64,000 nucleotides of DNA, taken from Azoarcus indigens. GTDB taxonomy: Bacteria; Pseudomonadota; Gammaproteobacteria; Burkholderiales; Rhodocyclaceae. This document shows positions 7,598 through 59,146 of the stretch, piece after piece (within the stretch, counting starts at the first letter, position 1; each line of letters begins with the position of its first letter). The position numbers and the translations under genes are program-made. Under the pieces are notes generated by a model. It was not told where the DNA came from. It searched no databases and saw only the letters and a list, made by a program, of their open reading frames with translations. The stretch is taken from NCBI RefSeq assembly GCF_004361735.1, contig NZ_SNVV01000003.1, positions 248,001-312,000 of the forward strand. Reading direction: 5' to 3'.

Positions 7598-7613
7598 TGC
7601 ATTCGGCGTGCCC
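7598..7613 (-). promoter_or_regulatory. Candidate sigma-54 promoter of the DUF4142-mscS-glgX-topoIB operon
   Basis: On the minus strand the sequence reads GGGCACG-CCGA-ATGCA. The -24 half matches TGGCACG except for the first base, and the -12 half has ATGC for TTGC. GG and GC are separated by exactly ten bases. A transcript would start near 7586, about 95 bases before the ATG at 7490. Confidence 0.5.
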
Positions 7614-7956
7614 GCCTTGTTCTGCTGCGCCGGGAAAGCATGGATAAAGGCATGCGGGCGCGACTGCCCGGAATGGGTCATCACCCTGAAAACAGCGGCA
7701 TACAGCCGCCTCAGCGCCGGTGCGAAGCCAAGGCGCGGATTGCGGCGCCGCATCAAACGGCGGCGGGAAGAAGGGCCCGGCTACCGGCCTCGGGAAGCGG
7801 CCGGTGGGAAAAAAAGTCATCGCACAGGAAAAAACGACTTACATTCGGGCGCGCCGGATTTAGTGATCCCGCAACAAAGGAAGAACACCCTCTGCCCTGC
7901 GCGAGGGGAGAAGCGGATGACGTTGGGGACCCCCAAGGCCAGGAGCCGAATCCGAA

Positions 7957-8001
7957 TCCATGCCAGAGACATGGAACTCACAGCCATGCCGGAGGTATGG
8001 C
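7957..8001. promoter_or_regulatory. Tandem 19-bp dyads upstream of rpoN, enhancer-like
   Basis: TCCATGCCAGAGACATGGA (7957-7975) and GCCATGCCGGAGGTATGGC (7983-8001) are each imperfect palindromes. They agree at most positions in the same orientation, with starts 26 bases apart. They lie about 130-175 bases upstream of the predicted rpoN transcription start, the usual place for binding sites of AAA+ sigma-54 activators. The bound protein is unknown and no such activator is encoded in the window. Confidence 0.5.
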
Positions 8002-8106
8002 CGAAGTCATGACTCTCCGGAAATTCTTACTGCCGGCATGTAAAACGTTCCGGGAAATTCAATTGCTCGCGGCCCTGGATCCCAGTGAATACAAGGAAAA
8101 TCTCAC

Positions 8107-8121
8107 TGGCATGGTCCTTGC
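8107..8121 (+). promoter_or_regulatory. Candidate sigma-54 promoter of rpoN
   Basis: TGGCATG-GTCC-TTGC fits TGGCACG-N4-TTGC with one mismatch and correct GG-N10-GC spacing. The transcript would begin near 8133, leaving a leader of about 50 bases before the ATG at 8183. It implies that the encoded factor, or another RpoN, controls its own gene. Confidence 0.65.
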
Positions 8122-8182
8122 GGAAGTCGGAGGCCCACCGCGTCCCCCTTCGCGGTAGAAGAGATCGGAGCAAGGAGACGTC

Positions 8183-9628
8183 ATGAGCCTCGGAATGGAA
8201 TTACGCCTGCGACAGCATCTGGCCATCACGCCCCAGATCCAGCAGGCCCTCCGGCTATTGCAGTTGTCATCGCAAGAGTTTTCACAGGAAGTCGAGCAAG
8301 CGGTCACCAGCAACCCTTTCCTCGAGGAAGACCCGGAAGCGCCCCCCCAACCTTCCGCAGCAATCGCGATGCCGGCCCCGTCGGAGACCACGGTGTCCAC
8401 GCCGGACAGCATGGAATCCGGCGAAGCGCCGATGCCGATGGCGCTGCACGAGATAGGCCGCTCCGGCGGCGGCAGCAGCGGCGACGAGGAGAACGACTGG
8501 ACGGAGTGGACCGAGTCACCCATCTCGCTGCGCGAGAATCTGCGCACCCAGCTGCAGCTGTCGCCGATGAGCGACCGCGACCGCACGCTGGCCTACATGA
8601 TCATCGACGAGCTCACCGATGCCGGTTACCTGGAGACGCCGCTGGAGGAACTGGCCGAGCTGATCTCACCGGAAGAGGAAGTGGATGTCTGCGAACTGAG
8701 CGCCGCGCTCAAACTCGTGCAGCAGCTGGACCCGCCCGGCATCGGCGCCCGCTCCCTGCAGGAATGCCTGCAGTTGCAGCTGCAGGTGCTGCCGGAAGAC
8801 ACCCCCGCGCTGCCGCTGGCAATGGCGCTGGTCAATGAACATTTCGATCTGCTGGCCAAGCGCGAATTCACCCGCCTGCAGCAGATCCTGGAATGCGACG
8901 AGGACGCCCTGCACAGCGCCCGCGCCCTCATCCGCACGCTGGAACCCCGCCCCGGCCGCGTCTTCGCGCCGGACAACACCCGCTACGTGGTGCCGGACAT
9001 CATCGTCACCAACCAGCGCGGCCGCTGGGTGGCGACGCTGAATCCGGCGGTGCAGCCGCAGGTACGGATCAACCGCGCCTACGCCGACATCGCCGCCGGC
9101 CGCAACGGCGGCGGCTCCTTCTCCCGCCTGCTGCAGGAAGCGCGCTGGCTGCTGCGCAACGTGGAGCAGCGCTTCAACACCATACAGCGGGTGGCCGACG
9201 CCATCGTCGCCCGCCAGCGGGTGTTCTTCAGCTACGGGGAGGCGGCGATGAAGCCGATGGCGCTGAAGGACATCGCCACCGAACTGGGGCTGCACGAATC
9301 CACCGTCTGCCGCGTCACCAACGGCAAGTACATGGCCACACCGCGCGGCCTGTTCGAGTTCAAGTACTTCTTCTCTCGCCAGCTGGCGACCGAGGACGGC
9401 GGCAGCTGCTCCGCCACCGCCATCCGCGCGCTGATGAAGGAGCTGATCGCCGCCGAAGATCCACAGACGCCGCTGTCCGACGCCCAACTCGCCCGCATGC
9501 TCGCCGAGCAGGGCCTGAAACTGGCCCGGCGCACGGTGACCAAGTACCGCACGCTGATGCGCATACCCAGCGTGGAGCTGCGCCGCGTCGCCGGCCGCGG
9601 GTCCCACGTCGAAGCCAACGCCGCCTGA
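8183..9628 (+). CDS. rpoN: RNA polymerase sigma-54 factor, probable paralogue (RpoN)
   Basis: A 481-residue sigma-54. Region I is the Leu/Gln-rich N-terminus (MSLGMELRLRQ to about residue 50) that interacts with activators. An acidic variable region II follows (about 50-110). The core-binding domain spans roughly 115-300. The helix-turn-helix for the -12 element lies near 345-385 (LKDIATELGLHESTVCRV). The RpoN box ARRTVTKYR at 448-456, which reads the -24 element, is intact. The start has AAGGAG eight bases upstream. The housekeeping rpoN normally sits with lptB, hpf and ptsN, none of which is here, so I infer a second copy dedicated to this island. Downstream are a glycine-zipper protein and a glycosyltransferase in probable operon. 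Confidence 0.96.
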   Translation: MSLGMELRLRQHLAITPQIQQALRLLQLSSQEFSQEVEQAVTSNPFLEEDPEAPPQPSAAIAMPAPSETTVSTPDSMESGEAPMPMALHEIGRSGGGSSGDEENDWTEWTESPISLRENLRTQLQLSPMSDRDRTLAYMIIDELTDAGYLETPLEELAELISPEEEVDVCELSAALKLVQQLDPPGIGARSLQECLQLQLQVLPEDTPALPLAMALVNEHFDLLAKREFTRLQQILECDEDALHSARALIRTLEPRPGRVFAPDNTRYVVPDIIVTNQRGRWVATLNPAVQPQVRINRAYADIAAGRNGGGSFSRLLQEARWLLRNVEQRFNTIQRVADAIVARQRVFFSYGEAAMKPMALKDIATELGLHESTVCRVTNGKYMATPRGLFEFKYFFSRQLATEDGGSCSATAIRALMKELIAAEDPQTPLSDAQLARMLAEQGLKLARRTVTKYRTLMRIPSVELRRVAGRGSHVEANAA

Positions 9629-9655
9629 GCGGCGCCACCACAGGAGGGAGGCATC

Positions 9656-14210: not shown

Positions 14211-14226
14211 GGCAATCGCCATGCCC
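14211..14226 (-). promoter_or_regulatory. Candidate sigma-54 promoter of the GT4-PAP2 pair
   Basis: Minus strand GGGCATG-GCGA-TTGCC: GG-N10-GC spacing exact, -12 TTGC perfect, -24 with two mismatches from TGGCACG. Transcription would start near 14199, about 70 bases before the ATG at 14127. Confidence 0.58.
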
Positions 14227-14484: not shown

Positions 14485-14500
14485 GGGCACGCCCATTGCA
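14485..14500 (+). promoter_or_regulatory. Candidate sigma-54 promoter of the small-ORF/phospholipase operon
   Basis: GGGCACG-CCCA-TTGCA differs from TGGCACG-N4-TTGCA only at the first base. The start of transcription would be near 14511, 25 bases before the ATG at 14536. Confidence 0.65.
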
Positions 14501-22776: not shown

Positions 22777-22792
22777 AGCAAGCCGGGTGCCC
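22777..22792 (-). promoter_or_regulatory. Candidate sigma-54 promoter of the DksA-like/cydAB operon
   Basis: Minus strand GGGCACC-CGGC-TTGCT, with perfect -12 and two -24 mismatches, GG-N10-GC spacing exact. The transcript would start near 22766, about 60 bases before the ATG. Confidence 0.58.
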
Positions 22793-24332: not shown

Positions 24333-25499
24333 TCAAGCCGGTCCGGAGCACCTCCCGCGCCCCGGCACGGGGGCGCCCACCCCCGTTTTCCCCCCTCTTG
24401 TTCTTGTATTTGTCCTTGCGCCCCTGGGCGCAGCGGCGGCCGCTTTCCGCCGGCCACCGGCGGTGGCGCCGGGAACGCTCAAGCCACCACCATGCGGAGC
24501 GGCTGGCCGGGCTGCCGCAGTCTTCGTGCCCGGCGCGGCTTCTGCCTGAGTTGCCGCTGCCCCCGCGCCCTGCGGCGCTCCTGTTTCAGTCGCAGAGTCC
24601 GCCGGCACGGGAGGGCGTACGGCCTGGGTCGAGCTCGTTCTCCCGCCCGCCCCCTGGCTGGCACCACGGCCACCACCCGGGCGGTGGCGCTTGCCTCCTC
24701 CCGCCGGCGGCTGCGGCTCGTCGTCGCCCTCCTCGCTGGAAGTCCGCGTCAGCCCGCCCTCTATCAGACGTAGCGGCGGGCGCCCGTTGGCGCTACGCGC
24801 CGCCGCCAGGCGGGCGGCCCTGGCCAGCCTGGCGGCACTGGCCGCGCGCCTCGCCCGCAGCAAGGGGCCGGGGACGGCCCCCGGCCCCGCCGCGGAATCG
24901 CCCTTATCCACGAGTCTCGGCGCCGCCTTGGTGTGCAGGCAGGCGGAGGAAGAAAGCGACACAGGCGGGCCGGAAATCCGCCCGCGACGGCCGGGCTTGG
25001 TGACCGCCTTGGAGGGGGAGCTGGAAGGTTTTCTGGAGAAGGTGCTGGCGGGAGGCTTGGAAGGAGACTTGCCCCTGGGTCTGGCGGGCGCGTTGATGGC
25101 CGGCTTGGCGGCGGCTTTGCCGGCGGGTCGCGCCCGCCGTGGTTTCGCCGCCTGGGCTGCGCCGGGCCCGCGCGCCCCGGACGCCCGCCTGGCGCGGGCC
25201 GCCGGCTGGCGGGCAACAGGCTCGGCCGGCGTGTCAGCCGCAGCGGACGCCGCGCTCGGGCGCGCGATCACATGCTCGGTGGCGAGCAGCCACTCGCGCA
25301 TCGCTTGCGACCACCACCAGGCGGCCGGCGCCAGGATGAAGCCCCAGGCGCGCAGGGTGGCGCCAGCGGGTGTCCGCGCTTCGGGGCCACGCCAGACGAC
25401 ATAGACACGCTCGTCGGCGATGCCGGCACGGGCGATGCGTTCGCGCATCGGCGCCAGTTGCTCGTCGTCGCTGACCAGGCAATGAACGGTACAGGGCAT
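24333..25499 (-). CDS. Hypothetical protein with histone H1/AlgP-like basic low-complexity tail
   Basis: A 388-residue protein. Residues ~1-80 look like a small folded domain (MPCTVHCLVSDDEQLAPMRE, then VYVVWRGPEA and WGFILAPAAWWWSQAMREW) with one hydrophobic helix. I do not recognise the family. From ~85 to the end it is Ala/Pro/Lys/Arg/Ser-rich, with KAAAKPA- and KSPSKPP-like units as in bacterial histone-H1-like and AlgP proteins, which bind DNA non-specifically. The ATG at 25499 has AGGAGG five bases upstream and is preferred to the GTG two codons earlier. The last ~150 codons have weak coding character, so the 3' end is less certain. It has its own candidate promoter (25553-25568). Confidence 0.6.
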   Translation of the reverse strand: MPCTVHCLVSDDEQLAPMRERIARAGIADERVYVVWRGPEARTPAGATLRAWGFILAPAAWWWSQAMREWLLATEHVIARPSAASAAADTPAEPVARQPAARARRASGARGPGAAQAAKPRRARPAGKAAAKPAINAPARPRGKSPSKPPASTFSRKPSSSPSKAVTKPGRRGRISGPPVSLSSSACLHTKAAPRLVDKGDSAAGPGAVPGPLLRARRAASAARLARAARLAAARSANGRPPLRLIEGGLTRTSSEEGDDEPQPPAGGGKRHRPGGGRGASQGAGGRTSSTQAVRPPVPADSATETGAPQGAGAAATQAEAAPGTKTAAARPAAPHGGGLSVPGATAGGRRKAAAAAPRGARTNTRTRGGKTGVGAPVPGRGRCSGPA

Positions 25500-25552
25500 A
25501 TCCACCTCCTCCGCCTGTCAAGGCGGTGCCGGAAAGCTTGCCCGTGGAAAGC

Positions 25553-28220: not shown

Positions 28221-28236
28221 GGGAACGTCGCTTGCA
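28221..28236 (+). promoter_or_regulatory. Candidate sigma-54 promoter of the ThDP-enzyme operon
   Basis: GGGAACG-TCGC-TTGCA: perfect -12, two mismatches in -24, GG-N10-GC exact. The transcript would begin near 28247, about 22 bases before the ATG at 28269. Confidence 0.48.
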
Positions 28237-32094: not shown

Positions 32095-32138
32095 GGCGCC
32101 GCCACCGCAGATGGCCGGCGCCGCCACCGCAGATGGCC
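32095..32138 (+). repeat. 22-bp tandem duplication after ndh
   Basis: GGCGCCGCCACCGCAGATGGCC occurs twice, perfectly, at 32095-32116 and 32117-32138, followed by a partial third copy. It lies in the 181-base gap between ndh and the glycan cassette. This may mark a slippage or joining site at the cassette edge; no function is evident. Confidence 0.8.
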
Positions 32139-32267
32139 GGCGCCGCTTCCGCCGGAAACCGCATCGAGCGCCCCGGCGCCCGGCATCGCCCCACAGGAAC
32201 CCCGCCGCGCTGCGGTAGAATCTGTCACAAAGCAGATACAAATCGTGGCAGTGAAAGGTGGCGTGCA

Positions 32268-33293
32268 ATGGCGTTTTTCCCGGTGTTTCTCTCGGTCGTG
32301 CTGGTCGTCCGCAATCAGGAGGCACGGCTCGAGGAAATGCTCTCGGCGGCGGTGGGCAGCATCTCCCCCCTGGTTGGCGACCACGAGATCATCGTCGTCG
32401 ACAACGCATCCACCGACGGTAGCGTGGCCGAGCTGAAGCGGCTGACCAGCGAGAACGGGCTGCCGAACCTGCAGGTGTACGCGCTGACGAAGGAAGTGGA
32501 CGCGGACACCGCCTCCTGGGTGGGCCTGGAAAACGCGCTGGGCGACTTCGTCGCCGTCATCGACCCGCTCGCCGACGACATCGCCTTCCTGCCGCAGATG
32601 CTGGACAAGGCCGTCTCCGGTGCCGACGTCGTCTTCGCCACCAACGAGCAGCGGCCGCGGCAGTCCCTGGCCTACACGCTGGCCTACTCCGTCTTCAACC
32701 GTCTGTACAAATTCTTCAACGGCATCCACCTTGCCAACGAGGCGCCTCAGTACCGGGTGCTGAGCAAGCGGGTGATCAATTTCATCCTGCAGCATCCCCA
32801 GCCCTCCATCACCTACCGCCATCTGCCGGCCACCGGCGGCTTTGCCCGGGTGAACCTGCGTTACAGCGCGCCGCCGCGCGCCACCGCGGCGAAGCCCCTG
32901 GGCGAGAGCATAGGCAGGGGAACACGGCTGCTGGTGTCCACCACCCGGGCGCCGATGCGGCTGGTCATGGGGCTATCCCTGTTCGGCGCGGTCGCCAACG
33001 TGCTCTATTCCATCTACGTGCTGGCGGTGGCGCTGCTCAATCCCAACGTGGCGGCCGGCTGGGTGAGCCTGTCGCTGCAGCAGTCAGGCATGTTCCTGCT
33101 GATCTCCCTGGTGCTGCTGGTGTTGGGCGAATACATCCTGCACATGGCCAGCCTGTCCACCGAAGGGCCGCCGTACCACGTCGCCCAGGAGTTCACCAGC
33201 GCCCGGCTGACGCGGCGGGAGAAGCTCAACGTGGAGGACGCTTCCACCGAGCGCGGGCGCTCCGTCTTCAGCGCTGCGGGACGCCCGGCGTGA
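32268..33293 (+). CDS. Glycosyltransferase family 2 with C-terminal membrane helices (polyprenyl-phosphate type)
   Basis: A 341-residue enzyme. The GT-A domain opens with LSVVLVVRNQEARLEEMLSA, has VVDNASTDGS (~43) and the metal-binding acidic region VAVIDPLADD (~95), a degenerate DxD. Two transmembrane helices follow at about residues 235-257 and 272-297, as in enzymes that load sugars onto undecaprenyl phosphate (GtrB/ArnC/DPM1 type). AAGGTGG lies before the ATG. It is the first gene of a seven- to eight-gene cassette with overlapping ends and overlaps the next by four bases (GTGA). Confidence 0.88.
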   Translation: MAFFPVFLSVVLVVRNQEARLEEMLSAAVGSISPLVGDHEIIVVDNASTDGSVAELKRLTSENGLPNLQVYALTKEVDADTASWVGLENALGDFVAVIDPLADDIAFLPQMLDKAVSGADVVFATNEQRPRQSLAYTLAYSVFNRLYKFFNGIHLANEAPQYRVLSKRVINFILQHPQPSITYRHLPATGGFARVNLRYSAPPRATAAKPLGESIGRGTRLLVSTTRAPMRLVMGLSLFGAVANVLYSIYVLAVALLNPNVAAGWVSLSLQQSGMFLLISLVLLVLGEYILHMASLSTEGPPYHVAQEFTSARLTRREKLNVEDASTERGRSVFSAAGRPA

Positions 33294-34438
33294 CCCTGCA
33301 GGCGTTCGACGCCGTCGTCGTCGGTGGAGGGTTCTACGGCGCCGCGATCGCGGTCTACCTGGCGCGCAGCCGCGGCTTCGGGAGGGTGCTGCTGGTCGAG
33401 CGCGGGCAGGCTCTGCTGACGCGCGCCTCGTATCACAACCAGGCCCGGGTGCATAACGGCTACCACTACCCGCGCAGCTTCACCACCGCTTACCGCAGCC
33501 GGGTGAACCTGCCGCGCTTCGTCAGCGACTGGCCGGCGGCGGTGCGCACCGACTTCACCAAGCTGTATGCCATCGCCCGACGCAACTCCAAGGTGACGAG
33601 CCGCCAGTTCGAGCGTTTCTGCCGCGACATCGGCGCCCGCATCCAGGCCGCTCCCGCCACCCTGGCCAGGCATTTCGACCCGCGCTTCATCGAGCGCGCC
33701 TACGTGGTCGAGGAGTACGCCTTCGACGCCTGCGTATTGCGCGCCTGGGCGGAGCGGGAACTGCGGGAAAGCGGCGTCGAGGTCCGGCTGGCAACGCAGG
33801 CTCTCGCGGTGGATGTGGCCCCGGCGGGCGGGCTGACGGTGACGCTGACGGGCGGGGCAGACGCTTACCAGGTTCACACATTCGGTGTATTCAACTGCAC
33901 CTACAGCGGGCTCAACCAGCTGGGCGGCAGTTTCGGCACCACCCGCACCGGGCTGAAGCACGAACTGACGGAGATGGCCCTGATGGACGTGCCGGCGCCG
34001 TTCAAGGACCTGGGGGTGACGGTGATGGACGGCCCCTTCTTCTCCTTGATGCCCTTCCCGGCGCGCGGGCTGCACACCCTCTCCCATGTCCGCTACACGC
34101 CTCACCTGCAGTGGGAGGACGAGCCCGGACTGGACCCCTACCGCCGCATGCAGGACTACGGGCAGGCAAGCCGGGCGGACCGCATGGTGCGCGACGTCGC
34201 CCGTTACATGCCGCTGGTGGCGCAGGCCCGCCATGTGGATTCGCTGTTCGAGGTAAAGACGGTCCTGCAGAAAAACGAAGGCGACGACGGCCGCCCCATC
34301 CTGTTCGAACGCCACGCCGGATTGCCGGGGGCGTATTCCATCCTCGGCGGCAAGATCGACAACATCTATGACGTCCTGGAGAAGCTGGAGAGCGAACCGC
34401 TGCTTTCCGCCTCCGGGGCCAGGGAGCACTCAACATGA
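33290..34438 (+). CDS. FAD-dependent oxidoreductase (DAO-like)
   Basis: A 382-residue flavoprotein. FAD binding is seen in VVVGGGFYGAAIAVYLARS (~10-28), with the E of LLVERG at strand two. YHNQARVHNGYHYPRS (~50) resembles a substrate-binding block of the DAO superfamily members found in polysaccharide clusters. The C-terminal GGKIDNIYDVLE closes the FAD site. The probable task is oxidation of a sugar or amine in the pathway. The start is GTG overlapping the previous stop, and it overlaps the epimerase gene by four bases. The precise substrate is not known. Confidence 0.8.
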   Translation: MTLQAFDAVVVGGGFYGAAIAVYLARSRGFGRVLLVERGQALLTRASYHNQARVHNGYHYPRSFTTAYRSRVNLPRFVSDWPAAVRTDFTKLYAIARRNSKVTSRQFERFCRDIGARIQAAPATLARHFDPRFIERAYVVEEYAFDACVLRAWAERELRESGVEVRLATQALAVDVAPAGGLTVTLTGGADAYQVHTFGVFNCTYSGLNQLGGSFGTTRTGLKHELTEMALMDVPAPFKDLGVTVMDGPFFSLMPFPARGLHTLSHVRYTPHLQWEDEPGLDPYRRMQDYGQASRADRMVRDVARYMPLVAQARHVDSLFEVKTVLQKNEGDDGRPILFERHAGLPGAYSILGGKIDNIYDVLEKLESEPLLSASGAREHST

Positions 34439-35220
34439 ACGCACTGATCGGCCATACCGGCTTCGTCGGTGGCACCTTGCTGCGGCAGGCGGCATTCGAT
34501 GCCCTGTACCGCTCCACCGACATCCATGAGGTCCGGGGACGCAGCTTCGATCTCGTGGTCTGCGCCGGCGCCCCGGCGCAGAAGTGGATCGCCAACAAGG
34601 AACCGGAAGCCGACCTCGCCAGCATCAACGGCCTGATCGGCCACCTGGACAAGATCGAGTGCAAGACCTTCGTGCTGATCAGCACCGTGGACGTGTTCAA
34701 GCAGCCGCTGGAGGTGGATGAAGCCTCGCCGGTCATCGAGGACGGCCTGCATGCCTACGGACTGCATCGCCGCCTGCTGGAGCAGTTCGTCGAGCGCCGC
34801 TTCGAGCGCCATCTCGTCGTGCGCCTGCCCGGCCTAGTCGGCCCCGGGCTGCGCAAGAACGTCATCTTCGACTTCCTCAACGACAACAACCTGCACGCCA
34901 TCGATAGCCGCGGCGTCTTCCAGTTCTACCCCATGGTCAACCTCTGGCAGGACCTGCAGACGGCCCTGCAGGCCGGGCTTTCGCTGCTGCACCTGACGGC
35001 GGAGCCGGTGAGCGTGGCCACCATCGCCGGTAGCGGCTTCGGCCGCCGTTTCGAGCAGGCGCTGGGCAACCCGCCGGCACGCTACGACATGCGCAGCCGC
35101 CATGCTGCCTTGTTCGGCGGCCACGGCAGCTACCAATACGACCTGCGCGAAACGCTGCTGGCGGTGCGTGCCTACGCCCAGTCGGAACCGCGCAAGCCCA
35201 AGGCGGAGGCGCCGGCATGA
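34435..35220 (+). CDS. NAD(P)-dependent sugar epimerase/dehydratase-like protein
   Basis: A 261-residue short-chain (extended SDR) Rossmann protein. The cofactor motif is IGHTGFVGG at residues 5-13, and LISTVDVF with Y of DGLHAYGLHR gives the likely S-x-Y-x3-K/H pattern. Usually YxxxK, but here YGLHR, so activity may be altered. It is shorter than typical UDP-sugar epimerases (~330). The context suggests conversion of a nucleotide sugar for the cassette. Both ends overlap neighbours (ATGA), consistent with coupling. Confidence 0.75.
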   Translation: MNALIGHTGFVGGTLLRQAAFDALYRSTDIHEVRGRSFDLVVCAGAPAQKWIANKEPEADLASINGLIGHLDKIECKTFVLISTVDVFKQPLEVDEASPVIEDGLHAYGLHRRLLEQFVERRFERHLVVRLPGLVGPGLRKNVIFDFLNDNNLHAIDSRGVFQFYPMVNLWQDLQTALQAGLSLLHLTAEPVSVATIAGSGFGRRFEQALGNPPARYDMRSRHAALFGGHGSYQYDLRETLLAVRAYAQSEPRKPKAEAPA

Positions 35221-36041
35221 GGCTGTCCATCTCCAACATTGCCTGGGACATCGAGGAAGATGGCGCGGTCGCCGCGCTGCTGCGCCAGCGCAAGGTGGAT
35301 GCGATCGACATCGCCCCCGGCAAGTATTTTCCCGATCCCGCACGGGCCACCGATGCCCAGATCCACGCCGTGCGCCAGTGGTGGGCGGAGCAGGAGATCG
35401 AGATCACCGGCATGCAGGCCCTGCTGTTCGGCACCCAGGGCCTCAATGTCTTCGGCCCCGCCGCCACCCAGGACGCCATGCTTGCCCACCTGGAGGCGGT
35501 CTGCCGCATCGGCGGCGGCCTCGGCGCGACGCACCTGGTCTTCGGCTCGCCGAAGAACCGTGACCGCAGCGGGATGAGCGACAGCGCAGCCACGGACATG
35601 GCATGCGCCTTCTTCTCCCGCCTGGGCGATGCCGCTGCCCGCCACGGCGTGGTGATCTGCCTGGAGCCCAACCCCGCTGCCTACGGCGCCAACTTCATGA
35701 CTACCAGCGCGGAAACCGCCGCGGTGGTGCGCGCCATCGGCCATGCCGCCATCCGCATGCAGTTCGACGTCGGCGCCGTCACCATGAACGGCGAGGATGC
35801 CGCCGAGGTGGTGCAGCGCTGCGGCGACCTCGTCGCGCATGTACATGCCAGCGAGCCCGGCCTGAAAACCCTGGGCGACGGCGGCAGCGACCACCAGCGC
35901 GCCGCAGCGGCGCTGCTGGCCAGCCTGCCCCAGCATGTGGTCTGCATCGAAATGCTGGCCAGCGAGAGCGAGCCCCATCTTTCCGCCATAGGCCGGGCCC
36001 TCGACCTGGCCGACGCGGCCTACCGGGCCGCCGGAGCCTAG
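35217..36041 (+). CDS. Sugar phosphate isomerase/epimerase (xylose-isomerase-like TIM barrel)
   Basis: A 274-residue AP-endonuclease-2-like TIM barrel. The N-terminal LSISNIAWDIEEDGAVAALL, LVFGSPKNRDR (~105) and ICLEPNP (~147, first metal Glu), and VAHVHASEPG (~205) match the metal-binding strand ends. Family members isomerise or epimerise sugars, inositols or related compounds. It starts within the preceding stop (ATGA) and ends four bases before the SMR-type gene. Its role would be to make the sugar carried by this cassette, which is inferred from position. Confidence 0.83.
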   Translation: MRLSISNIAWDIEEDGAVAALLRQRKVDAIDIAPGKYFPDPARATDAQIHAVRQWWAEQEIEITGMQALLFGTQGLNVFGPAATQDAMLAHLEAVCRIGGGLGATHLVFGSPKNRDRSGMSDSAATDMACAFFSRLGDAAARHGVVICLEPNPAAYGANFMTTSAETAAVVRAIGHAAIRMQFDVGAVTMNGEDAAEVVQRCGDLVAHVHASEPGLKTLGDGGSDHQRAAAALLASLPQHVVCIEMLASESEPHLSAIGRALDLADAAYRAAGA

Positions 36042-36045
36042 CCTC

Positions 36046-36402
36046 ATGAAGTGGCTCATCCTCGTCCTCGGCATCCTCGCCAACGCGTCCGCCAGCGTGC
36101 TGGTGAAGTACGCGATGCTGCCGCCGCGCCGTTTCCCCTCGCTGTCCGACCCGCTGGCGGCGCTCGGCAACTGGCCCTTCTGGCTGGGCCTTGCCCTCTA
36201 TGGCGGCGCCTTCCTGCTGTACGCGGCCGCGCTCGCCCGGCTGCCGCTCAATGTCGCCCACCCCATCCTGACCTCCGGCGCCGTGGCCACCGTGGCGCTC
36301 TTCTCCGTGGTGCTGTTCAGCGAGCCTTTCCACTGGACCACCGCGGTGGGCGTCCTGCTGGTGATTGCCGGCGTCTGCCTGATCACCCTTCGTGTTGCCT
36401 GA
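36046..36402 (+). CDS. Small multidrug-resistance/EamA-type four-helix protein (ArnE-like)
   Basis: A 118-residue protein with four transmembrane helices (about 2-18, 45-67, 74-91 and 96-115). It resembles the small EamA/SMR proteins that flip undecaprenyl-phosphate-linked aminoarabinose (ArnE/ArnF). In a cassette with two polyprenyl-type glycosyltransferases, a role as lipid-linked-sugar flippase is the simplest reading. Only one such subunit is present, so it would work as a homodimer. A true drug exporter is less likely. Confidence 0.78.
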   Translation: MKWLILVLGILANASASVLVKYAMLPPRRFPSLSDPLAALGNWPFWLGLALYGGAFLLYAAALARLPLNVAHPILTSGAVATVALFSVVLFSEPFHWTTAVGVLLVIAGVCLITLRVA

Positions 36403-36418
36403 ACTCCTGCAAGAAAAA

Positions 36419-37249
36419 ATGACTCCATCCACCCCGCCAGCGCTGCCCGGATCCGCCACCTGGGAAGTACCCGCCTTCGACATCGCCCTGTGGCCGGGCC
36501 GCAGCCAGCCCTGGTGCGTGGTGATTCCGGTGATCAACGAGGGCGAGCGCATCCGCAACCTCCTGCGCCGGATGGCGGCGCTCTCCGTTTCGGCGATGGC
36601 CGACATCATCATCGTCGATGGCGGCAGCAAGGACGGCTCGCTGGCCCTGGATGCGCTGCAGGCGCAAGGCGTGCGGGGCCTGCTGGTCAAGACCGGGCCG
36701 GGCAAGTTGAGCGCCCAGCTGCGCTGCGCCTACGCCTTCGCGCTGCAACAGGGCTACGCGGGCATCGTCACCATAGACGGCAACGACAAGGACGACCCGG
36801 AGGGGATTCCGCGCTTCATCGAAGCGCTGAAGGCAGGCTACGACTTCGTCCAGGGCTCGCGCTTCGTGCCCGGCGGCGTGGCGGAGAACACGCCGCGCTC
36901 GCGCGACTGGGCGATCCGCTTCATCCACGCCCCCATGCTGAGCCTGGCCTCCGGCTTCCGGTGGACCGACACCACCCAGGGCTTCCGCGCCTACAGCCGC
37001 CGCATGCTGCTGGACCCGAGGGTGGCACCGTTCCGCGACGTCTTCCTCACTTACGAACTGCTGGCCTACCTCTCCTATCGCGGCCCCCGGCTCGGCTTCC
37101 GCTGCATCGAGCTGCCCTCGATCCGGCGCTATCCGAAGGGCGAGGTGCCGACCAAGATTTCCAGCGTGCGCGGCAACCTCTCCGTCTTCAAGGTGCTGGT
37201 GGCCGCCTGCCTCGGCCGGTTCAACCCCGCCGGCGACCGGGAAGCCTGA
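36419..37249 (+). CDS. Glycosyltransferase family 2
   Basis: A 276-residue soluble GT-A enzyme. CVVIPVINEGERIRNLL (~31) opens the fold, then IIVDGGSKDGS (~60) and VTIDGNDKDDPEG (~114) with the DxD-like acidic motif. The C-terminal part FRAYSRRMLLDP is typical of UDP-glucose:undecaprenyl-phosphate and dolichol-phosphate sugar transferases. The ATG at 36419 was chosen; a GTG at 36392 would overlap the previous gene. Neither has a strong ribosome-binding site. It is the second GT2 of the cassette and has no membrane helices. Confidence 0.83.
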   Translation: MTPSTPPALPGSATWEVPAFDIALWPGRSQPWCVVIPVINEGERIRNLLRRMAALSVSAMADIIIVDGGSKDGSLALDALQAQGVRGLLVKTGPGKLSAQLRCAYAFALQQGYAGIVTIDGNDKDDPEGIPRFIEALKAGYDFVQGSRFVPGGVAENTPRSRDWAIRFIHAPMLSLASGFRWTDTTQGFRAYSRRMLLDPRVAPFRDVFLTYELLAYLSYRGPRLGFRCIELPSIRRYPKGEVPTKISSVRGNLSVFKVLVAACLGRFNPAGDREA

Positions 37250-37352
37250 TGCCGCGCCGGCACCGTTATTCCCCAGCCCCTGCTCCGCGCCTGACGCCGC
37301 CTGCGCTGGATTGGGCCGAGAACCAGCTGCGCTCTAACCCCCAAACCACAAG

Positions 37353-38963
37353 ATGAACCCGGCAAGAACCACGACAAACCGCCTTTTCGCCGCCTGCGCC
37401 CTGCTACTGGCCGCCTTCAACGCCTTCCTGCAGAATTTTCCCGGCAATTTCTCCCTCAACGGCGGCCTCTTCGCCTTCAGCGATCCCTTCCACCAGGGCG
37501 AGCATTTCGCCTTCGCCCAGTCCCTGGGCAACTCGACTCAGGCGGTGGACGCGCTCTCCATCCACGGCGCGCTGGATTTCATCCCCAGTCTCATCGGCGC
37601 ACAGCTGTGGGGCAGCGATCACCACTTCATCCCCAGCTACGCCATCTATGCGCTGCTGGGAACGCTGGCCGCCCTGCTGCTGTTCCTCGTCCCCGGCGCC
37701 GCCGGCGATGCCGCCAGGCGGCGCGCCTCCCTCTTCGCCCTGGCGCTCATCGGCGGTCTGGCGGTGGGCTACCGGGATTTCTTCCTGCTGATCTCCCTGG
37801 GCGCCTTCTACGGCCTGCTTACCGCGGAACTCCGCCCCGGCTGGCGAACCGCGCTCCAGCTCCTGTTCGGCCTCTCCACCGCCTTCGGCCTGTACTGGTC
37901 CTTCGACCGCGGCATTGCCGCCGTGGTCTCCCTGGGCACGGCCACGCTTTACCTGGCCTGGACGGACAGGCGCTTCGTGCTGCCCCTGCTCTCCTTCGCC
38001 GCCGGCCTAGTGATCCTCGCCTGCCTGCACGACGTCTTCTCGCCACGGGCTTTCATCGAGAACGTGATGGTGCTGGTGCAGACCTCTGCGCAGTGGCGCT
38101 ACAACCCCAGCGAGAAAACGGCGACGCTGACGGCCTTCGCCCTCTTCATCAACCTGCTGGCGCTGGGCCTGTTCTGGGGCTCCCACCTGAAAGGGCGGAC
38201 GCTGCGGCTGCATGCCGCCGAAGCCATCGCCCTGACGCTGCTTGCCATCCTCTTCCTGAAGATAGGGACGAACCGGGTCGACCTTCAGCACATCCACTCC
38301 GCGCTGTGGGTGCCGGGGATCCTGGCGATGCGGATGAACCACCGCAGCATTCCGTTGCACACGCCGCTGCTCTGCGTCTCCTTCCTCGGCTTCGTATTCG
38401 CGGTCCAGATCGGCGTCGAGTTCCGCTCCTATTGCCTGCCCCTGATCGCCGGCTTGATCCTCTATCAGTTCGACGCCCAGCGGACCGCGATCAGGCGCCT
38501 GATCAAGCTCACCTTCCTTTTCGCCCTGCTGCTGGTGCTCTTCTCCGCCTGGAAAAGGAACAGCGACCTGGAGAGCTACGCCTGGCTGCAGAGCCTGCGT
38601 GCCCCTCAGAGCAACTGGCAGAGCGCCGAACCCGCAATGCAGTGGGTCGCCTCCGAACTGCTCAGGAACAAGGTGGGCTGCGTCTTCGACCTCTCCAACA
38701 ACGGCATCATCAACGGCCTCACCCGGCTGCCCGCCTGCAGCCGTTTCATCTACCCGGTCTACGCCAGCGCGGCCTACGAGGACGAACTCATCCAGAGCCT
38801 GGCGAACGCGCGGCCGGCGGCCCTGGTGTATTCCTCCACCTTCTGGTCCTACCGCATCGACGGCCGCCCGATGAACGAGCGCTTCCCCGCGCTGGACCGC
38901 TTCATCCTCCAGAACTACCCGCAACAGACCTGCGAACACGGCTACTGCATCAGGTACCGCTGA
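37353..38963 (+). CDS. Multi-pass membrane protein, GT-C-like
   Basis: A 536-residue protein with about ten to eleven transmembrane helices up to residue ~400, then a periplasmic tail with four Cys (GCVFDLS, PACSRF, QTCEHGYC). The first loop (FSLNGGLFAFSDPFHQGEH) carries acidic residues in the place where GT-C enzymes hold their catalytic Asp. That fold uses lipid-phosphate sugar donors to modify lipids, glycans or proteins outside the membrane. Codon use is slightly less GC-rich than in neighbouring regions. It starts 103 bases after the GT2 gene. Function inferred; no known family motif is decisive. Confidence 0.7.
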   Translation: MNPARTTTNRLFAACALLLAAFNAFLQNFPGNFSLNGGLFAFSDPFHQGEHFAFAQSLGNSTQAVDALSIHGALDFIPSLIGAQLWGSDHHFIPSYAIYALLGTLAALLLFLVPGAAGDAARRRASLFALALIGGLAVGYRDFFLLISLGAFYGLLTAELRPGWRTALQLLFGLSTAFGLYWSFDRGIAAVVSLGTATLYLAWTDRRFVLPLLSFAAGLVILACLHDVFSPRAFIENVMVLVQTSAQWRYNPSEKTATLTAFALFINLLALGLFWGSHLKGRTLRLHAAEAIALTLLAILFLKIGTNRVDLQHIHSALWVPGILAMRMNHRSIPLHTPLLCVSFLGFVFAVQIGVEFRSYCLPLIAGLILYQFDAQRTAIRRLIKLTFLFALLLVLFSAWKRNSDLESYAWLQSLRAPQSNWQSAEPAMQWVASELLRNKVGCVFDLSNNGIINGLTRLPACSRFIYPVYASAAYEDELIQSLANARPAALVYSSTFWSYRIDGRPMNERFPALDRFILQNYPQQTCEHGYCIRYR

Positions 38964-38988
38964 TTCCGCTCGTCACCGGACACCTCAA

Positions 38989-39465
38989 ATGCGCCCCACC
39001 CTGAGCCTGCTTGCCTGCTCCGCCTTCCTGAGCCCCCTCCTGCCGGCCCACGCCGCCGGCGCGCCGCCCTTTGTCTGCGGCGACAGCGTGGTCCATGCCA
39101 CGACGGCGCAGGCGCGGGGCGATGTCTGGCTGCAGGATTTCGTCGTCACCCTGGAGCGCGGCGGAGAGCGGCGGGTGCTGCGGTTCAAGCCGGAGAATGA
39201 TTTCCTGCGGCTGCATTGCGTGGCCCACGGCGGGCGCGGCTATCTGGTCGTGGACCACAGCTGCGGCGGCAGCGGCTGCGCCGACCACAACTACGGCGTG
39301 GTCGATCTGGCGGATTTCAGCGAACCGTTGCAGCCCACCGAGCGCTATCGCGGCAATGAGGCCGCAGCGCGAAGGCTGCTGGAGGGCGATCTGCCGGCTT
39401 CCCTGGATTGCCGCGACACCGCGGGCGCCAGCCTGTGCCTGCAGGTGGAAGACGAACTGCAGTGA
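38989..39465 (+). CDS. Hypothetical periplasmic protein
   Basis: A 158-residue protein with an N-terminal signal peptide ending at AHAA (~24). The mature part has five Cys (VCGDS, LHCVAH, SCGGSGC, plus two near the end around DCRDTAGASLCLQV), suggesting disulfides. No family recognised. It follows the GT-C-like gene by 25 bases and may be the last gene of the cassette, possibly an acceptor or accessory protein. It could also be an unrelated exported protein. Confidence 0.65.
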   Translation: MRPTLSLLACSAFLSPLLPAHAAGAPPFVCGDSVVHATTAQARGDVWLQDFVVTLERGGERRVLRFKPENDFLRLHCVAHGGRGYLVVDHSCGGSGCADHNYGVVDLADFSEPLQPTERYRGNEAAARRLLEGDLPASLDCRDTAGASLCLQVEDELQ

Positions 39466-39579: not shown

Positions 39580-39753
39580 TCAGAACACCAGCGTTCCCAG
39601 GCCGACCCCGAAGATCAGCACGATCAGGAAGATCGCCAGCGCGATGAAGAACAGCACCTTGGCAATGCCGGCGGCACCGGCGGCGATGTTGGTGAAACCG
39701 AGCAGACCGGCGACCAGGGAGATGACGAAAAAGATGATGGCCCACTTGATCAT
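39580..39753 (-). CDS. DUF1328 small membrane protein (YtjA-like)
   Basis: A 57-residue protein with two hydrophobic helices joined by a [14 protein letters not shown] turn, the signature of DUF1328. Members are small inner-membrane proteins induced in stress; function is unknown. The ribosome-binding site AAGGAG is 11 bases upstream. A second DUF1328 gene lies at 57577-57738. No sigma-54-type promoter is found here. Instead a TGTAA-N3-TTACA dyad lies about 70 bases upstream. Confidence 0.88.
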
Positions 39754-39818: not shown

Positions 39819-39831
39819 TGTAAAACTTACA
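39819..39831. promoter_or_regulatory. TGTAA-N3-TTACA dyad upstream of DUF1328
   Basis: TGTAAAACTTACA on the plus strand is an inverted repeat (5-bp arms) in an A/T-rich patch within otherwise GC-rich DNA. It lies 66-78 bases before the ATG at 39753 and is a probable operator or promoter region. The regulator is unknown. Confidence 0.45.
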
Positions 39832-39890
39832 CTGCCCGGTAAGGCATACAGCCTGCGGAGCGTTTTTCCAGGCCGTTGGCATACCCACGA

Positions 39891-40315: not shown

Positions 40316-40331
40316 CGCAAACGGCGTACCC
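40316..40331 (-). promoter_or_regulatory. Candidate sigma-54 promoter of the BON gene
   Basis: Minus strand GGGTACG-CCGT-TTGCG: perfect TTGC, two mismatches in the -24, exact spacing. Transcription would start near 40305, about 75 bases before the ATG. Confidence 0.52.
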
Positions 40332-40358: not shown

Positions 40359-40374
40359 GGGCATGACACTTGCT
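40359..40374 (+). promoter_or_regulatory. Candidate sigma-54 promoter of the htrA operon
   Basis: GGGCATG-ACAC-TTGCT: perfect TTGCT, two -24 mismatches, exact spacing. Transcription would start near 40386, about 27 bases before the ATG at 40413. Only 27 bases separate it from the opposed BON promoter. Confidence 0.58.
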
Positions 40375-53880: not shown

Positions 53881-53896
53881 AGGCATCGCCATTGCC
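53881..53896 (+). promoter_or_regulatory. Candidate sigma-54 promoter of the DUF2231 gene
   Basis: AGGCATC-GCCA-TTGCC: perfect TTGC, three -24 mismatches, exact spacing. It would start near 53907, about 75 bases before the ATG at 53981. It lies within the coxB signal region, so a chance match is possible. Confidence 0.38.
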
Positions 53897-54553: not shown

Positions 54554-54570
54554 GGGCAAGGCGGCGCCGC

Positions 54571-54993: not shown

Positions 54994-55086
54994 GGACGCC
55001 CCCGGATTCTGCGGATGATGTGAGGCCGCGGCGGCCCGCGCCGCCGGCGGGGAGGCGCCCCGCCTGCCTGCCGCGCAGTGGCGCCT

Positions 55087-57066: not shown

Positions 57067-57564
57067 TCACGACGCCGGCATCGCCGGGCGGAGGGCATTG
57101 ATCACCTCCTCCACGCCGGCAACTTCGCGGGCAATGGCATCCGCCCGGGTGATCTGGTCCGCCGGTACCAGCCCGTCCAGGGTGACCTGGCCACGGGCGA
57201 CGGTGACGGTGATGGCACTGGCCTGCACCCGGCTGTCCGCGCCCAGGGCGGCGTTCACCCGCGCCCTCAGCACATCGTCGTTCACCGGCTCCGGCGTGGG
57301 GCGGGAGGTTTCACTGACCGAGGTGGGGCCTTCCTCCGTCTGGATCTTGTCGCCGCAGCCGGCGAGCGCCAGGCTGAAGACGGCGAACAGGGTGACGAAC
57401 AGGCGAGCCGGGCGTGGCCGCCGTGCCGTCCCACCACGGGCGGGCAGGTCGCCGCGCACGACGGCAAGCAGGGGCGGCAACGCGCCGGCACCGTGAAAAC
57501 CGGCAAGGCTGGCGGCGGCGGCTGCGCCCAGGGAAATCGGGGGGCTCATGCTGTTCATGCTCAT
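57067..57564 (-). CDS. BON-domain lipoprotein with long N-terminal extension
   Basis: A 165-residue protein. A hydrophobic segment ends in LAGC (Cys70), then a Thr/Pro-rich linker and a BON domain (~92-160, NDDVLRARVNAALGADSRV). The 50 residues before the lipobox are unusual, so the true start may be internal, for example the GTG of VRGDLPARGG, but the GGGAGG next to the ATGs at 57564 and 57558 supports the long form. Gaps of 12 bases from DUF1328 and about 176 to the next BON gene suggest one operon. Function is presumed envelope maintenance. Confidence 0.75.
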   Translation of the reverse strand: MSMNSMSPPISLGAAAAASLAGFHGAGALPPLLAVVRGDLPARGGTARRPRPARLFVTLFAVFSLALAGCGDKIQTEEGPTSVSETSRPTPEPVNDDVLRARVNAALGADSRVQASAITVTVARGQVTLDGLVPADQITRADAIAREVAGVEEVINALRPAMPAS

Positions 57565-57576
57565 CGGCCTCCCTGG

Positions 57577-57738
57577 CTAGCGTTGCAGGACACCCAGCAC
57601 CAGGGACACCACGAAGACCACCAGGAAGATGTAGAACAGGATCTTCGCGATGCCGGCGGCGCCGGCGGCGATGCCACCGAAGCCAAACAGGGCGGCGATG
57701 ATGGCGATGACAAGGAAAACCGCGGCGTAATAGAGCAT
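57577..57738 (-). CDS. DUF1328 small membrane protein, second copy
   Basis: A 53-residue protein, [20 protein letters not shown] followed by [20 protein letters not shown], with the typical two helices and Gly/Ala turn of DUF1328. GAGGAGG lies upstream of the ATG. It is the first gene of an operon with two BON lipoproteins and the PLD-family enzyme. A near-consensus -24/-12 promoter stands 47 bases upstream. Paralogue of the gene at 39580. Confidence 0.88.
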
Positions 57739-57784
57739 GGCTGACCTCCTCGGTCCGGAAGCGGCTGTTTACGACCCTCGCGGC

Positions 57785-57800
57785 AGCAAACAGCGTGCCT
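57785..57800 (-). promoter_or_regulatory. Candidate sigma-54 promoter of the DUF1328-BON-PLD operon
   Basis: Minus strand AGGCACG-CTGT-TTGCT differs from TGGCACG-N4-TTGCT only at the first base. Transcript start near 57774, about 36 bases before the ATG at 57738. One of the best matches in the window. Confidence 0.68.
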
Positions 57801-58163
57801 TCCCCGGCGGCTCGCGGCCGGGAGCGGGGAGAATGGCGGCTCCGCTTGCGCCCGCTTTCCGGCCCTCGCCTATGACCCACCGCCTGTCGCCCGCCCCCGC
57901 CGGCGACGGCCGTTTCCCGTCCTCCCGCCGGCCTTCAGGGTGATTTTTCCCGCGACTTCTGCCCCTCCGTGCAGGGAAAGCCGCTGATAGCCGGGGCACT
58001 TCTCCGGTTTTGCGCCGTGCCCGCCGGTTCAGCCCCCTGCTTTCACGCCTTTTCCGCCAGCCACGGCGCACGCTCGGCCTTTTCCGGCGGAAATCCCTGA
58101 AAAAACGCCATCTGACCGGTAACTATTACAGGCTGCCGGGCTTGGTCGCACCCCCGCGGCGCC

Positions 58164-58179
58164 GGGCATGAAAGCTGCG
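58164..58179 (+). promoter_or_regulatory. Candidate sigma-54 promoter of DUF3309
   Basis: GGGCATG-AAAG-CTGCG: two mismatches in the -24 and one in the -12, exact spacing. Transcript start near 58191, about 36 bases before the ATG at 58227. Confidence 0.45.
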
Positions 58180-58226
58180 CCTTTGCCGGCACCGCGGCCC
58201 CGCCGCCATAAAAAGGAGGACATGCC

Positions 58227-58385
58227 ATGACCGTATCGACCATCCTGCTGGTCATTCTCATCCTGCTCCTGGTTGGCGCCCTGCCCACCTGGCCCCACAG
58301 CGCCGGTTGGGGCTACCGGCCCAGCGGCCTCATCGGCCTGGTCCTGGTCGTCGTCCTCATCCTGCTGCTGATGGGCGCGATATAG
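58227..58385 (+). CDS. DUF3309 small membrane protein
   Basis: A 52-residue protein with two hydrophobic helices (STILLVILILLLVGALP and GLVLVVVLILLLMGAI) around a Trp-Pro-His loop (TWPHSAGWGYRPSG), as in DUF3309. The function of this widespread family is unknown. AGGAGG lies eight bases upstream. Single gene followed by a strong terminator hairpin. Confidence 0.88.
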   Translation: MTVSTILLVILILLLVGALPTWPHSAGWGYRPSGLIGLVLVVVLILLLMGAI

Positions 58386-58423
58386 CGACGGGCGCGGCGG
58401 CCTGCGCTGCGCCGCGCCTTCAG

Positions 58424-58462
58424 GGAAACGCCCCCTGCGGCGGCGCCGCAGGGGGCGTTTCC
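58424..58462. terminator. Bidirectional terminator between DUF3309 and the CBS gene
   Basis: An 18-bp perfect stem, GGAAACGCCCCCTGCGGC paired with its complement 58445-58462, with a GGC loop. It sits between convergent genes. The stem ends in GTTTCC with TTG after it on the plus strand, and the symmetry would also serve the minus-strand gene. The T tail is short. Confidence 0.75.
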
Positions 58463-58492
58463 TTGTTCAGGCCGGCCGCCGCCAGCCACGGC

Positions 58493-58981
58493 TCAGGACA
58501 TCTGCGTGCTGGAACCCGGCCCGCCGCTGTTGCGGCCGGCGGGGGGAGAGGCAGAACTGCCCGGACTGTGCGAGGGCTGCGAGATGCCGCATACCGCCTG
58601 CCCCGCCGGCCGCTCGCCCTGGCGGTTGGCAAGATCCGCCAGGGAGATGATGCCCACCATCTTCTTGTCGTGATCCAGCACCACCAGCCTGTGCAACTGG
58701 ATGTCGCCCATGTTGCGGGCAACGCCGTCCAGTTCGTCGTCGTCGAAGCAGTACTTCACCTGTTCGCTCATCACCTTCCGCACCTCGGTTTCGCCAGCCA
58801 TGCCGGCGGCCACGCCGCGGATGGCGATGTCGCGGTCGGTGACCATGCCGACCAGGCGGCCGTTCTCGCCTACCGGCAGGGAGCCGACGTCGCAGTCCGC
58901 CATCATCCGCGCGGCCTCGTGTATGGATTGACTCGGATTGACCAGCTTCACGTCCCTGGTCATCGCTTCTCGTACCAGCAT
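58493..58981 (-). CDS. CBS-domain protein
   Basis: A 162-residue soluble protein with two CBS motifs (about 8-60 and 70-120) forming one Bateman module: MTRDVKLVNPSQSIHEAA, VGMVTDRDIAIRGVA, and VRKVMSEQVKYCFDDDEL with MVGIISLADLA. Such modules bind adenine nucleotides and regulate partners. The C-terminal 40 residues are Ser/Pro/Gly-rich. The ATG has AAGGAGG-like sequence upstream. It has a promoter of sigma-54 type back to back with the peptide-ligase operon. The partner is unknown. Confidence 0.9.
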   Translation of the reverse strand: MLVREAMTRDVKLVNPSQSIHEAARMMADCDVGSLPVGENGRLVGMVTDRDIAIRGVAAGMAGETEVRKVMSEQVKYCFDDDELDGVARNMGDIQLHRLVVLDHDKKMVGIISLADLANRQGERPAGQAVCGISQPSHSPGSSASPPAGRNSGGPGSSTQMS

Positions 58982-59071
58982 GATGCACCTCCTTGATATG
59001 ACTGAGGAAAATCAGCATCAGACCGAACAGCTGAGGACGCGCCCCAGCGGGTCTATGCTGCATCTGGGGGC

Positions 59072-59087
59072 TGCAAGCCCCGTACCC
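59072..59087 (-). promoter_or_regulatory. Candidate sigma-54 promoter of the CBS gene
   Basis: Minus strand GGGTACG-GGGC-TTGCA: perfect TTGCA, two mismatches in the -24, exact spacing. Transcript start near 59061, about 80 bases before the ATG. Confidence 0.55.
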
Positions 59088-59130
59088 GCGGGCTTCGCCC
59101 GGCCGGCGCCGCCCCGGCCGCCCCGACGCG

Positions 59131-59146
59131 AGGCACGCCATTTGCG
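59131..59146 (+). promoter_or_regulatory. Candidate sigma-54 promoter of the peptide-ligase operon
   Basis: AGGCACG-CCAT-TTGCG: a near-perfect match, with only the first base off in the -24 and perfect TTGC. Transcript start near 59158, about 21 bases before the ATG at 59179. Confidence 0.68.

Follow-up and report, generated by a model that had tools for sequence, protein, structure and literature searches.

A sigma-54 paralogue of Azoarcus indigens and its neighbouring promoters: a candidate two-tier system with a shifted -24 element

A second gene for the alternative sigma factor sigma-54, rpoN2, lies in a 64,000-nucleotide stretch of the Azoarcus indigens genome (contig NZ_SNVV01000003.1, here C3, positions 248001-312000; hereafter the window). 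G-, L- and C-numbers denote genomes, loci and contigs, G000 being the window's own genome, with an assembly of 5.46 Mb in 76 contigs. The gene is accompanied, by association, by -24/-12 promoters that keep the GG-N10-GC core of sigma-54 sites and in which the first base of the -24 element is shifted. An earlier note on this DNA had described these promoters as matching the consensus; at the first base of TGGCACG this held for rpoN2's own promoter alone, whereas the 12 effector promoters deviate there (G in nine, A in three). Based on our observations, we consider it likely that the locus belongs to a two-tier sigma-54 system that uses a promoter code of its own, and in which a histidine kinase, an activator and the housekeeping factor RpoN1 would switch on rpoN2, and RpoN2 would in turn serve the promoters with the shifted -24 element. 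The RpoN2 system nevertheless remains a sigma-54 system.

Two sigma-54 genes were found in the host genome. The copy on contig C20 (RpoN1) has an LptB-like ATPase gene before it and then hpf- and ptsN-like genes, as read by eye. The window copy is 49% identical to it and, as the earlier note had stated, stands outside this housekeeping lptB/ptsN locus. All three sigma-54 family domains (PF00309, PF04963 and PF04552) were detected in RpoN2 above cut-off, and sequence comparison identifies it as a true paralogue of RpoN1; in a phylogenetic tree the RpoN2-type proteins form one clade (support 100/100). Among 395 genomes from the family, 14 had a match to RpoN2 (E<=1e-150); among 399 from the order, 4 did (E<=1e-146), of which two, G432 and G489, were new. 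A further search added Azoarcus sp. TTM-91, whose protein is 98% identical to that of the window, Dechloromonas hankyongensis and eight betaproteobacterial contigs of metagenome-assembled genomes (MAGs). The eleventh match of that search, from a Bacillota genome, shows 31% identity and a canonical-type RpoN box.

Promoter sites were scored with a 10-position sigma-54 matrix that has zero weight at -27, -26 and -11 and is therefore blind to the base before GG. We number GG as -25/-24 and the preceding base as -26; PMC9770992 places the latter one position further out. At a score of at least 12 this matrix found 18 sites in the window. Fifteen lay in the 10,502 bases called non-coding and three (two sense, one antisense) in the 53,498 bases of coding DNA, a density per base about 25-fold higher outside genes, and a first-order Markov simulation of the non-coding segments (10,341 bases) gave a mean of 1.2 and a maximum of 4 sites in 60 runs. 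Two of the 15, at 24531 and 25424, fall within an H1-like open reading frame (ORF; 24333-25505) omitted by the gene caller, and the other 13 are the named promoters of window genes. The full matrix gave, at the same threshold, 14 sites in the window (2.19 per 10 kb) versus 23 in 300 kb sampled at 15 places elsewhere in the genome (0.77 per 10 kb). With the pattern TGGCACGN4TTGC and up to one mismatch, six of 146 genome-wide matches fell in the window, where 1.7 were expected from its length (reversed control: 101 genome-wide).

The island of sigma-54-like promoters proposed in the earlier note thus withstood both the Markov and the coding controls, and similar sites recur before related genes beside rpoN2 elsewhere. 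Its sixteen promoters were reduced to 13 that score at least 12, on the sense strand and 5' of a gene: those of rpoN, the DUF4142 operon, GT4-PAP2, small-ORF/PLD, DksA-like/cydAB, the thiamine diphosphate (ThDP) enzyme, BON, htrA, DUF2231, DUF1328-BON-PLD, DUF3309, CBS and the peptide ligase. The phasin site reached 10.2, and nothing of at least 9.5 was seen before the H1-like and GH15 genes. The four sites singled out as best (8107, 14485, 57785 and 59131) are all among the six top scorers. The distances to the start codon, given as mostly 20-95 bases, were 16-108 bases and 300 bases for the peptide ligase, with start codons assumed. The idea of a local RpoN dedicated to these genes is now better founded because the effector -24 element has changed, and not because of consensus matches; the effector promoters would depend on RpoN2.

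The shift was followed in 24 regions from 22 genomes or contigs, centred on rpoN2 (on the activator in two); as these regions are related, the counts are not independent. With the blind matrix (at least 12), 138 of 459 upstream stretches carried a site, versus 7 of 134 in the background from the window's own genome. The base at -26 of the 138 sites was G in 87, C in 22, A in 19 and T in 10. These shares of 63% for G and 7% for T compare with about 32% and about 17%, respectively, in upstream DNA. When each of 47 gene families was represented by its majority base (ties to the first seen), the numbers were G 28, C 7, A 7 and T 5. Expectation-maximisation seeded with GG-N10-GC alone converged, on 347 upstream stretches, to C(.66)G(.56)GGCAYG-N4-TTGC, while the background yielded no motif with TTGC. 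The promoter of rpoN2 itself behaves differently: at a threshold of 9, sites were found in 20 of 21 rpoN2 upstream stretches, with T in 18, C in one and G in one (T in 12 of 14 at a score of at least 12). One of the ten T sites above is the rpoN2 promoter of G159, which slipped through the filter, and three precede the activator gene in MAGs.

A canonical control was provided by the leader genes of glnK operons in RpoN2-bearing genomes. Sites of at least 11 precede the leader gene at 9 of 15 glnK-type loci, and all nine carry T at -26, with a -12 half of CGTGC or similar. The start codons of P-II genes proved unsuitable for this purpose: the 350 bases before 29 of 30 such genes held nothing convincing (best score 8.5). 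In the window's own genome, intergenic sites beside other activators (at least 10.5) had T in 11 of 17 cases, and both sites beside the RpoN2-linked activator had G. Exact matches to NGGCAYGN4TTGCW were listed for 30 genomes and counted in 10 RpoN2-bearing ones, leaving aside G003, G006, G159 and G266. Within 50 kb of rpoN2 lay 11 of 39 G-type, 12 of 25 A-type, 7 of 56 C-type and 0 of 44 T-type matches, where about 2% were expected. As this pattern requires A or T at -11, it misses the rpoN2 promoters that end in TTGCG.

In four genomes outside the 24-region set, T occupied -26 at 3 of 29 sites other than that of rpoN. The favoured base was G in G489 (G 8, T 2; n=10; RpoN box TKYRN) and C in G432 (C 7, G 3; n=10; TKYRR), G016 (C 3, G 2, T 1; n=6; SKYRG) and G101 (C 2, G 1; n=3; SKYRG), and the rpoN2 gene itself had C, A, T and T, respectively. 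The MAGs (ITKYRA) were mixed (C 6, T 4, A 3, G 2; n=15), three of the T sites being those of the activator gene. The rarity of T at the targets is therefore general, whichever base a branch favours instead, but rpoN2 itself does not have T in every genome. The favoured base varies between branches. There are hints that residue and base covary across branches, though the branches are few. The -11 base, which is the distinguishing position in Rhodobacter, was tried as an alternative code and set aside: the two classes overlap (targets A 40, T 41, C 34, G 23; rpoN2 promoters G 10, A 9, T 1) without a clean split. The clear split is at -26, and the GC of the -12 element is common to both.

The change in the promoters has a counterpart in the protein. 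According to PMC9770992, the RpoN domain reads the -24 element, and R455 and R456 recognise CTGGC. The window's RpoN2 keeps eight of the ten letters of the canonical RpoN box ARRTVAKYRE, its membership of the sigma-54 family not being in doubt. Both arginines are retained, and T453 and T457 align with A459 and E463 of the 477-residue sigma-54 of PDB 9mse. All 29 RpoN2-type loci (27 distinct, as L002/L003 and L004/L061 are repeats) share the form [AV]RRT[VI][TS]KYR[TAGNR], in which both of these positions are replaced, while the 27 RpoN1-type loci read ARRT[VI]AKYR[ED] and the change occurs in none. The -12 helix of the RpoN2-type proteins is largely unaltered (LHEST or IHEST kept). We infer that position 459 or 463 contacts the base before GG.

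As for possible activators, 28 PF00158 matches were found in the host genome, none of them inside the window. The one linked to RpoN2 has the NtrC-family architecture of receiver, sigma-54 interaction domain and Fis-type helix-turn-helix, with the loop GSFTGA instead of GAFTGA. This loop contacts sigma-54, and among the 15 own-genome activators parsed (22 strong ones in total) GSFTGA recurred in a single other one, L045. Of the 14 genomes with RpoN2 (E<=1e-150), 13 carry the activator at 76% identity or more; the remaining 381 genomes lack it at this level. Eleven of the 13 have it no more than 30 kb from rpoN2; in G236 the distance is 1.7 Mb, and in G003 the two genes are on separate contigs. 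On three MAG contigs activator and rpoN2 are a few kb apart at most. Its neighbours are genes for a PAS/HisKA/receiver kinase, DUF883, a holin-like protein, BrkB, BON, PRC-barrel and DUF421. At 55-61% identity, the activator occurs in five more genomes. G016 and G101 have a divergent RpoN2-type gene nearby, and no RpoN2-type gene was present within the 20 kb fetched in G069, G208 and G258. At L210 and L211 (G069 and G208), the homologues (55-56%) have neighbours that by eye resemble DUF421, PRC-barrel, DUF883 or DUF1328 genes, with no RpoN2 in the stretch; perhaps this arrangement is ancestral and run by RpoN1. The best sigma-54 site at the activator gene scored 9.3 among the 11 RpoN2-bearing activator loci parsed; three MAGs have a T-type site there. 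On MAG contigs L067 and L070, large proteins encoded beside the activator have N-termini similar, by eye, to that of the hybrid kinase.

A dyad search revealed palindromes that could serve as enhancers. In 852 kb of rpoN2 regions versus 300 kb of background, TGTAAN3TTACA occurred 13 versus 0 times exactly, 39 versus 1 with up to one mismatch and 105 versus 14 with up to two. GTAA-N3-TTAC was found 26 versus 0 times, a spacing of three being strongly favoured, and TTAC-N8/9-GTAA 28 versus 0 times. The latter partly represents palindromes arranged in tandem at a distance of two helical turns, and the block before rpoN2 accounts for 14 of the 28. Of 15 isolate-type regions, all but G377 have the exact dyad there, and the seven MAG contigs read lack it. 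A palindrome (up to two mismatches) lies 5' of 42 of the 138 sites versus 46 of 610 genes without a site. The window itself holds six at this stringency, with 0.94 expected, and none of 100 shuffles reached six. On grounds of linkage, the activator would be the protein that binds TGTAA-N3-TTACA. The NifA pattern (TGT-N10-ACA) and a loose NtrC pattern were absent upstream of rpoN2 in 11 genomes.

Taken together, we propose the following course of events. The hybrid histidine kinase probably phosphorylates the response-regulator activator, which would bind the TGTAA-N3-TTACA palindromes. At rpoN2, this activator (or another) would act with RpoN1 polymerase on the canonical T(-26)GG promoter, and the RpoN2 so produced, together with the same activator, would open promoters with G, less often A or C, before GG. 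These would drive envelope, redox and carbohydrate genes that, by their content, appear to be of the stress-response type. RpoN2 may read the shifted base because its box has lost A459 (now T or S) and E463 (now T, A, G, N or R) with the two arginines kept, and the little-changed -12 helix would pair with the little-changed -12 element. A stronger form of this proposal, to which we give an even chance, is that RpoN2 is a natural orthogonal sigma-54. Its -24 reading head (A459, E463) and the first base of the -24 element would have changed together, leaving RpoN1 promoters (with T, including that of rpoN2) and RpoN2 promoters insulated from each other and connected in series through one activator. 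Different branches would have settled on different bases, boxes ending in T or N going with G and those ending in R, or of the S..G form, with C.

Several observations weigh against such a code. The seven background sites of at least 12 read G 4, T 2 and C 1, so that G at -26 also occurs outside the island, although some of them may be chance matches or RpoN2 targets, and the background was drawn solely from the window's genome. The rpoN2 site has T in just two of the four additional genomes, with C in G489 and A in G432; G432, G016 and G101 prefer C to G, and the MAGs are mixed. "Not T" is true for most of the clade and "G" for part of it only. Although G159 has an RpoN2-type box, two of its four sites (one of them that of rpoN2) carry T, and the search for the activator gave no match there at the chosen threshold. 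Among the controls, the glnK locus L166 also has a G site that scores higher than its T site, and 6 of 15 glnK-type loci have no leader site of at least 11. A recognisable palindrome accompanies just 42 of 138 sites, and the background also holds 14 per 300 kb at up to two mismatches. The box difference itself could be drift.

It seems unlikely that RpoN1 and RpoN2 are simply interchangeable, serving an ordinary sigma-54 regulon in which -26 is merely relaxed in GC-rich DNA. The essential GG and GC are canonical throughout, some sites keep T, and the background sites, mostly not T, fit this explanation. However, the enrichment of G and depletion of T relative to upstream DNA amount to a preference and not to relaxation, most rpoN2 promoters and the glnK leaders retain T, and exact T-type sites avoid the island altogether. 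We regard as very unlikely the view that specificity comes from the dedicated activator alone, through its GSFTGA loop and the palindromes, with a neutral change in the RpoN box. The co-occurrence of activator and RpoN2 and the rarity of the loop would agree with it, but it leaves the consistent change in the -24 element, the very element read by the RpoN domain, unexplained, and T mostly persists at rpoN2 although a dyad built from these half-sites stands there too. As for chance matches in a 70% GC genome, their density at a low threshold is indeed near background (full matrix, at least 8: 12.7 versus 11.3 per 10 kb). The excess at the high threshold already refutes this explanation, and the contrast between non-coding and coding DNA and the recurrence before related genes make it scarcely credible.

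The -24 element and the RpoN box are, to our knowledge, generally regarded as near-invariant. Separate regulons served by several sigma-54 paralogues are known from Rhodobacter (Cereibacter) sphaeroides (RpoN1-RpoN4) and Bradyrhizobium japonicum (RpoN1/2), and those of R. sphaeroides reportedly differ in promoter recognition and have cognate activators, to go by the title of a 2006 study by Poggio. PMC3162934 reports that the sole difference between the promoters of the paralogues is at -11 for R. sphaeroides and at -12 for B. japonicum, whereas the split described here is at -26, in the -24 element, with no clean separation of classes at -11 or -12. Ralstonia and Xanthomonas also have two sigma-54 genes per genome; the portions of their accounts available deal with virulence, motility and growth and describe no promoter code. 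In the open-licence PMC literature, as sampled in part, no shift of -26, of the -24 element or of the RpoN box between sigma-54 paralogues was found.

Experimental information comes from Azoarcus sp. BH72, whose rpoN2 (azo1790) was induced on N2 (3.9-fold on the array, 17.8-fold by quantitative PCR), was negatively affected by NifA and has a predicted sigma-54 promoter, from a scan with one set of known sites (PMC3916325). In the passages considered, neither a regulon of RpoN2 nor a change in its box or a variant promoter is named. The forward primer used for azo1790 in quantitative PCR matches exactly the rpoN2 of the window and of four other regions, so azo1790 is probably the orthologue; the reverse primer matches three other regions, not the window. 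The induction of azo1790 fits sigma-54 control of rpoN2, and the nitrogen response in BH72 is not explained by the NifA and NtrC patterns, which were not seen before rpoN2. The general stress responses of RpoS, EcfG and SigB, which are sigma-70-family factors, have targets of a similar kind (BON, CBS, DUF1328, phasin); the RpoN2 system differs in using sigma-54 and should need an ATP-driven activator.

If protein and promoter have moved together, a testable rule linking residue to base would become available for sigma-54, the insulation of paralogues would be explained, and synthetic biology would gain natural orthogonal sigma-54/promoter pairs. The published promoter scans considered here use a single consensus per genome, and such scans would overlook regulons in genomes of this kind. 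RpoN2 is also a candidate regulator for small envelope genes listed as unknown (DUF1328, DUF3309, DUF4142, BON, DUF883) in Betaproteobacteria. The features discussed are collected in Table 1.

Table 1. Features of the rpoN2 locus and its candidate regulatory elements (window positions unless a contig is given)
Feature	Position	Strand	Evidence or remark
rpoN2, sigma-54 paralogue, 481 amino acids	8183..9628	+	Pfam AID, CBD, DBD above cut-off; 49% identity to RpoN1
RpoN box ARRTVTKYRT, residues 448-457	9524..9553	+	57-row alignment; alignment to PDB 9mse sigma-54
rpoN2 promoter, canonical T at -26, TGGCATG-N4-TTGCG	8107..8122	+	T in 18/20 rpoN2 upstream sites
DUF4142 operon, G-type promoter	7598..7613	-	score 12.5
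GT4-PAP2 operon, G-type promoter	14211..14226	-	score 15.1; G at 15/15 sites before GT4-family genes in RpoN2 regions
Small ORF-PLD/VTT-EEP operon, G-type promoter	14485..14500	+	score 15.6
DksA-like-cydAB, G-type promoter	22777..22792	-	score 13.0; family n=3: G 2, A 1
ThDP enzyme gene, G-type promoter	28221..28236	+	score 13.0
BON gene, G-type promoter	40316..40331	-	score 13.0; assumed start codon
htrA-AI-2E, G-type promoter	40359..40374	+	score 15.1
DUF2231 gene, A-type promoter	53881..53896	+	score 12.6
DUF1328-BON-BON-PLD operon, A-type promoter	57785..57800	-	score 15.6; DUF1328-family sites n=17: G 14, C 2, A 1
DUF3309 gene, G-type promoter	58164..58179	+	score 12.4; G in 7/7 family members
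CBS gene, G-type promoter	59072..59087	-	score 13.0; family n=6: G 5, A 1
C39 peptidase-RimK-like ligase operon, A-type promoter	59131..59146	+	score 15.6
Candidate enhancer TTAC-N9-GTAA, between DUF4142 and rpoN2	8027..8043	+	11-genome alignment block
Candidate enhancer pair, TGTAAAACTTACA (exact) and GGTAAGGCATACA (2 mismatches), 19 bp apart	39819..39850	+	5' of DUF1328 gene 39580-39753; closest scored promoter about 500 bp off
Candidate enhancer palindrome GGTAACTATTACA	58118..58130	+	centre about 40 bp 5' of DUF3309 promoter
RpoN2-linked response-regulator activator	C3:232150-233571		ends 14 kb before the window; PF00072, PF00158, PF02954; GSFTGA loop
Hybrid histidine kinase near the activator, PAS domains and C-terminal receiver	G000 C3:227060-230047		L206/L207

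Outside the rpoN2 regions, an exact G-type site lies 99 bp 5' of a gene for a glutamine/glycine-rich protein in two RpoN2-bearing genomes (L125 and L127), far from rpoN2; this gene is likely a distant member of the regulon. DUF1328 genes were seen in 4 of 20 genomes listed as lacking RpoN2. One of these is G016, which actually has a divergent RpoN2-type gene and, at its DUF1328 locus (L185), a strong C-type site. GT4 homologues (47-55% identity, perhaps not orthologues) occur in 17 of 26 genomes listed as RpoN2-lacking, with a site of at least 12 at 1 of 18. In G021, without RpoN2 at E<=1e-150, contig C1 carries AGGCACGCAGCTTGCT in seven identical copies, probably a repeated element.

Within the window, the DUF4142 ORF (minus strand, 6500-7000) contains a long run of TTPG-type repeats. 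About eight genes at 32133-39465 (one GT2 by Pfam, the others by eye oxidoreductase-, epimerase- and membrane-protein-like) separate a pyridine-nucleotide oxidoreductase gene from a DUF1328 gene. As DUF1328 lies within about 1.5 kb of the oxidoreductase start in G334, G125, G311 and G299, this block looks inserted.

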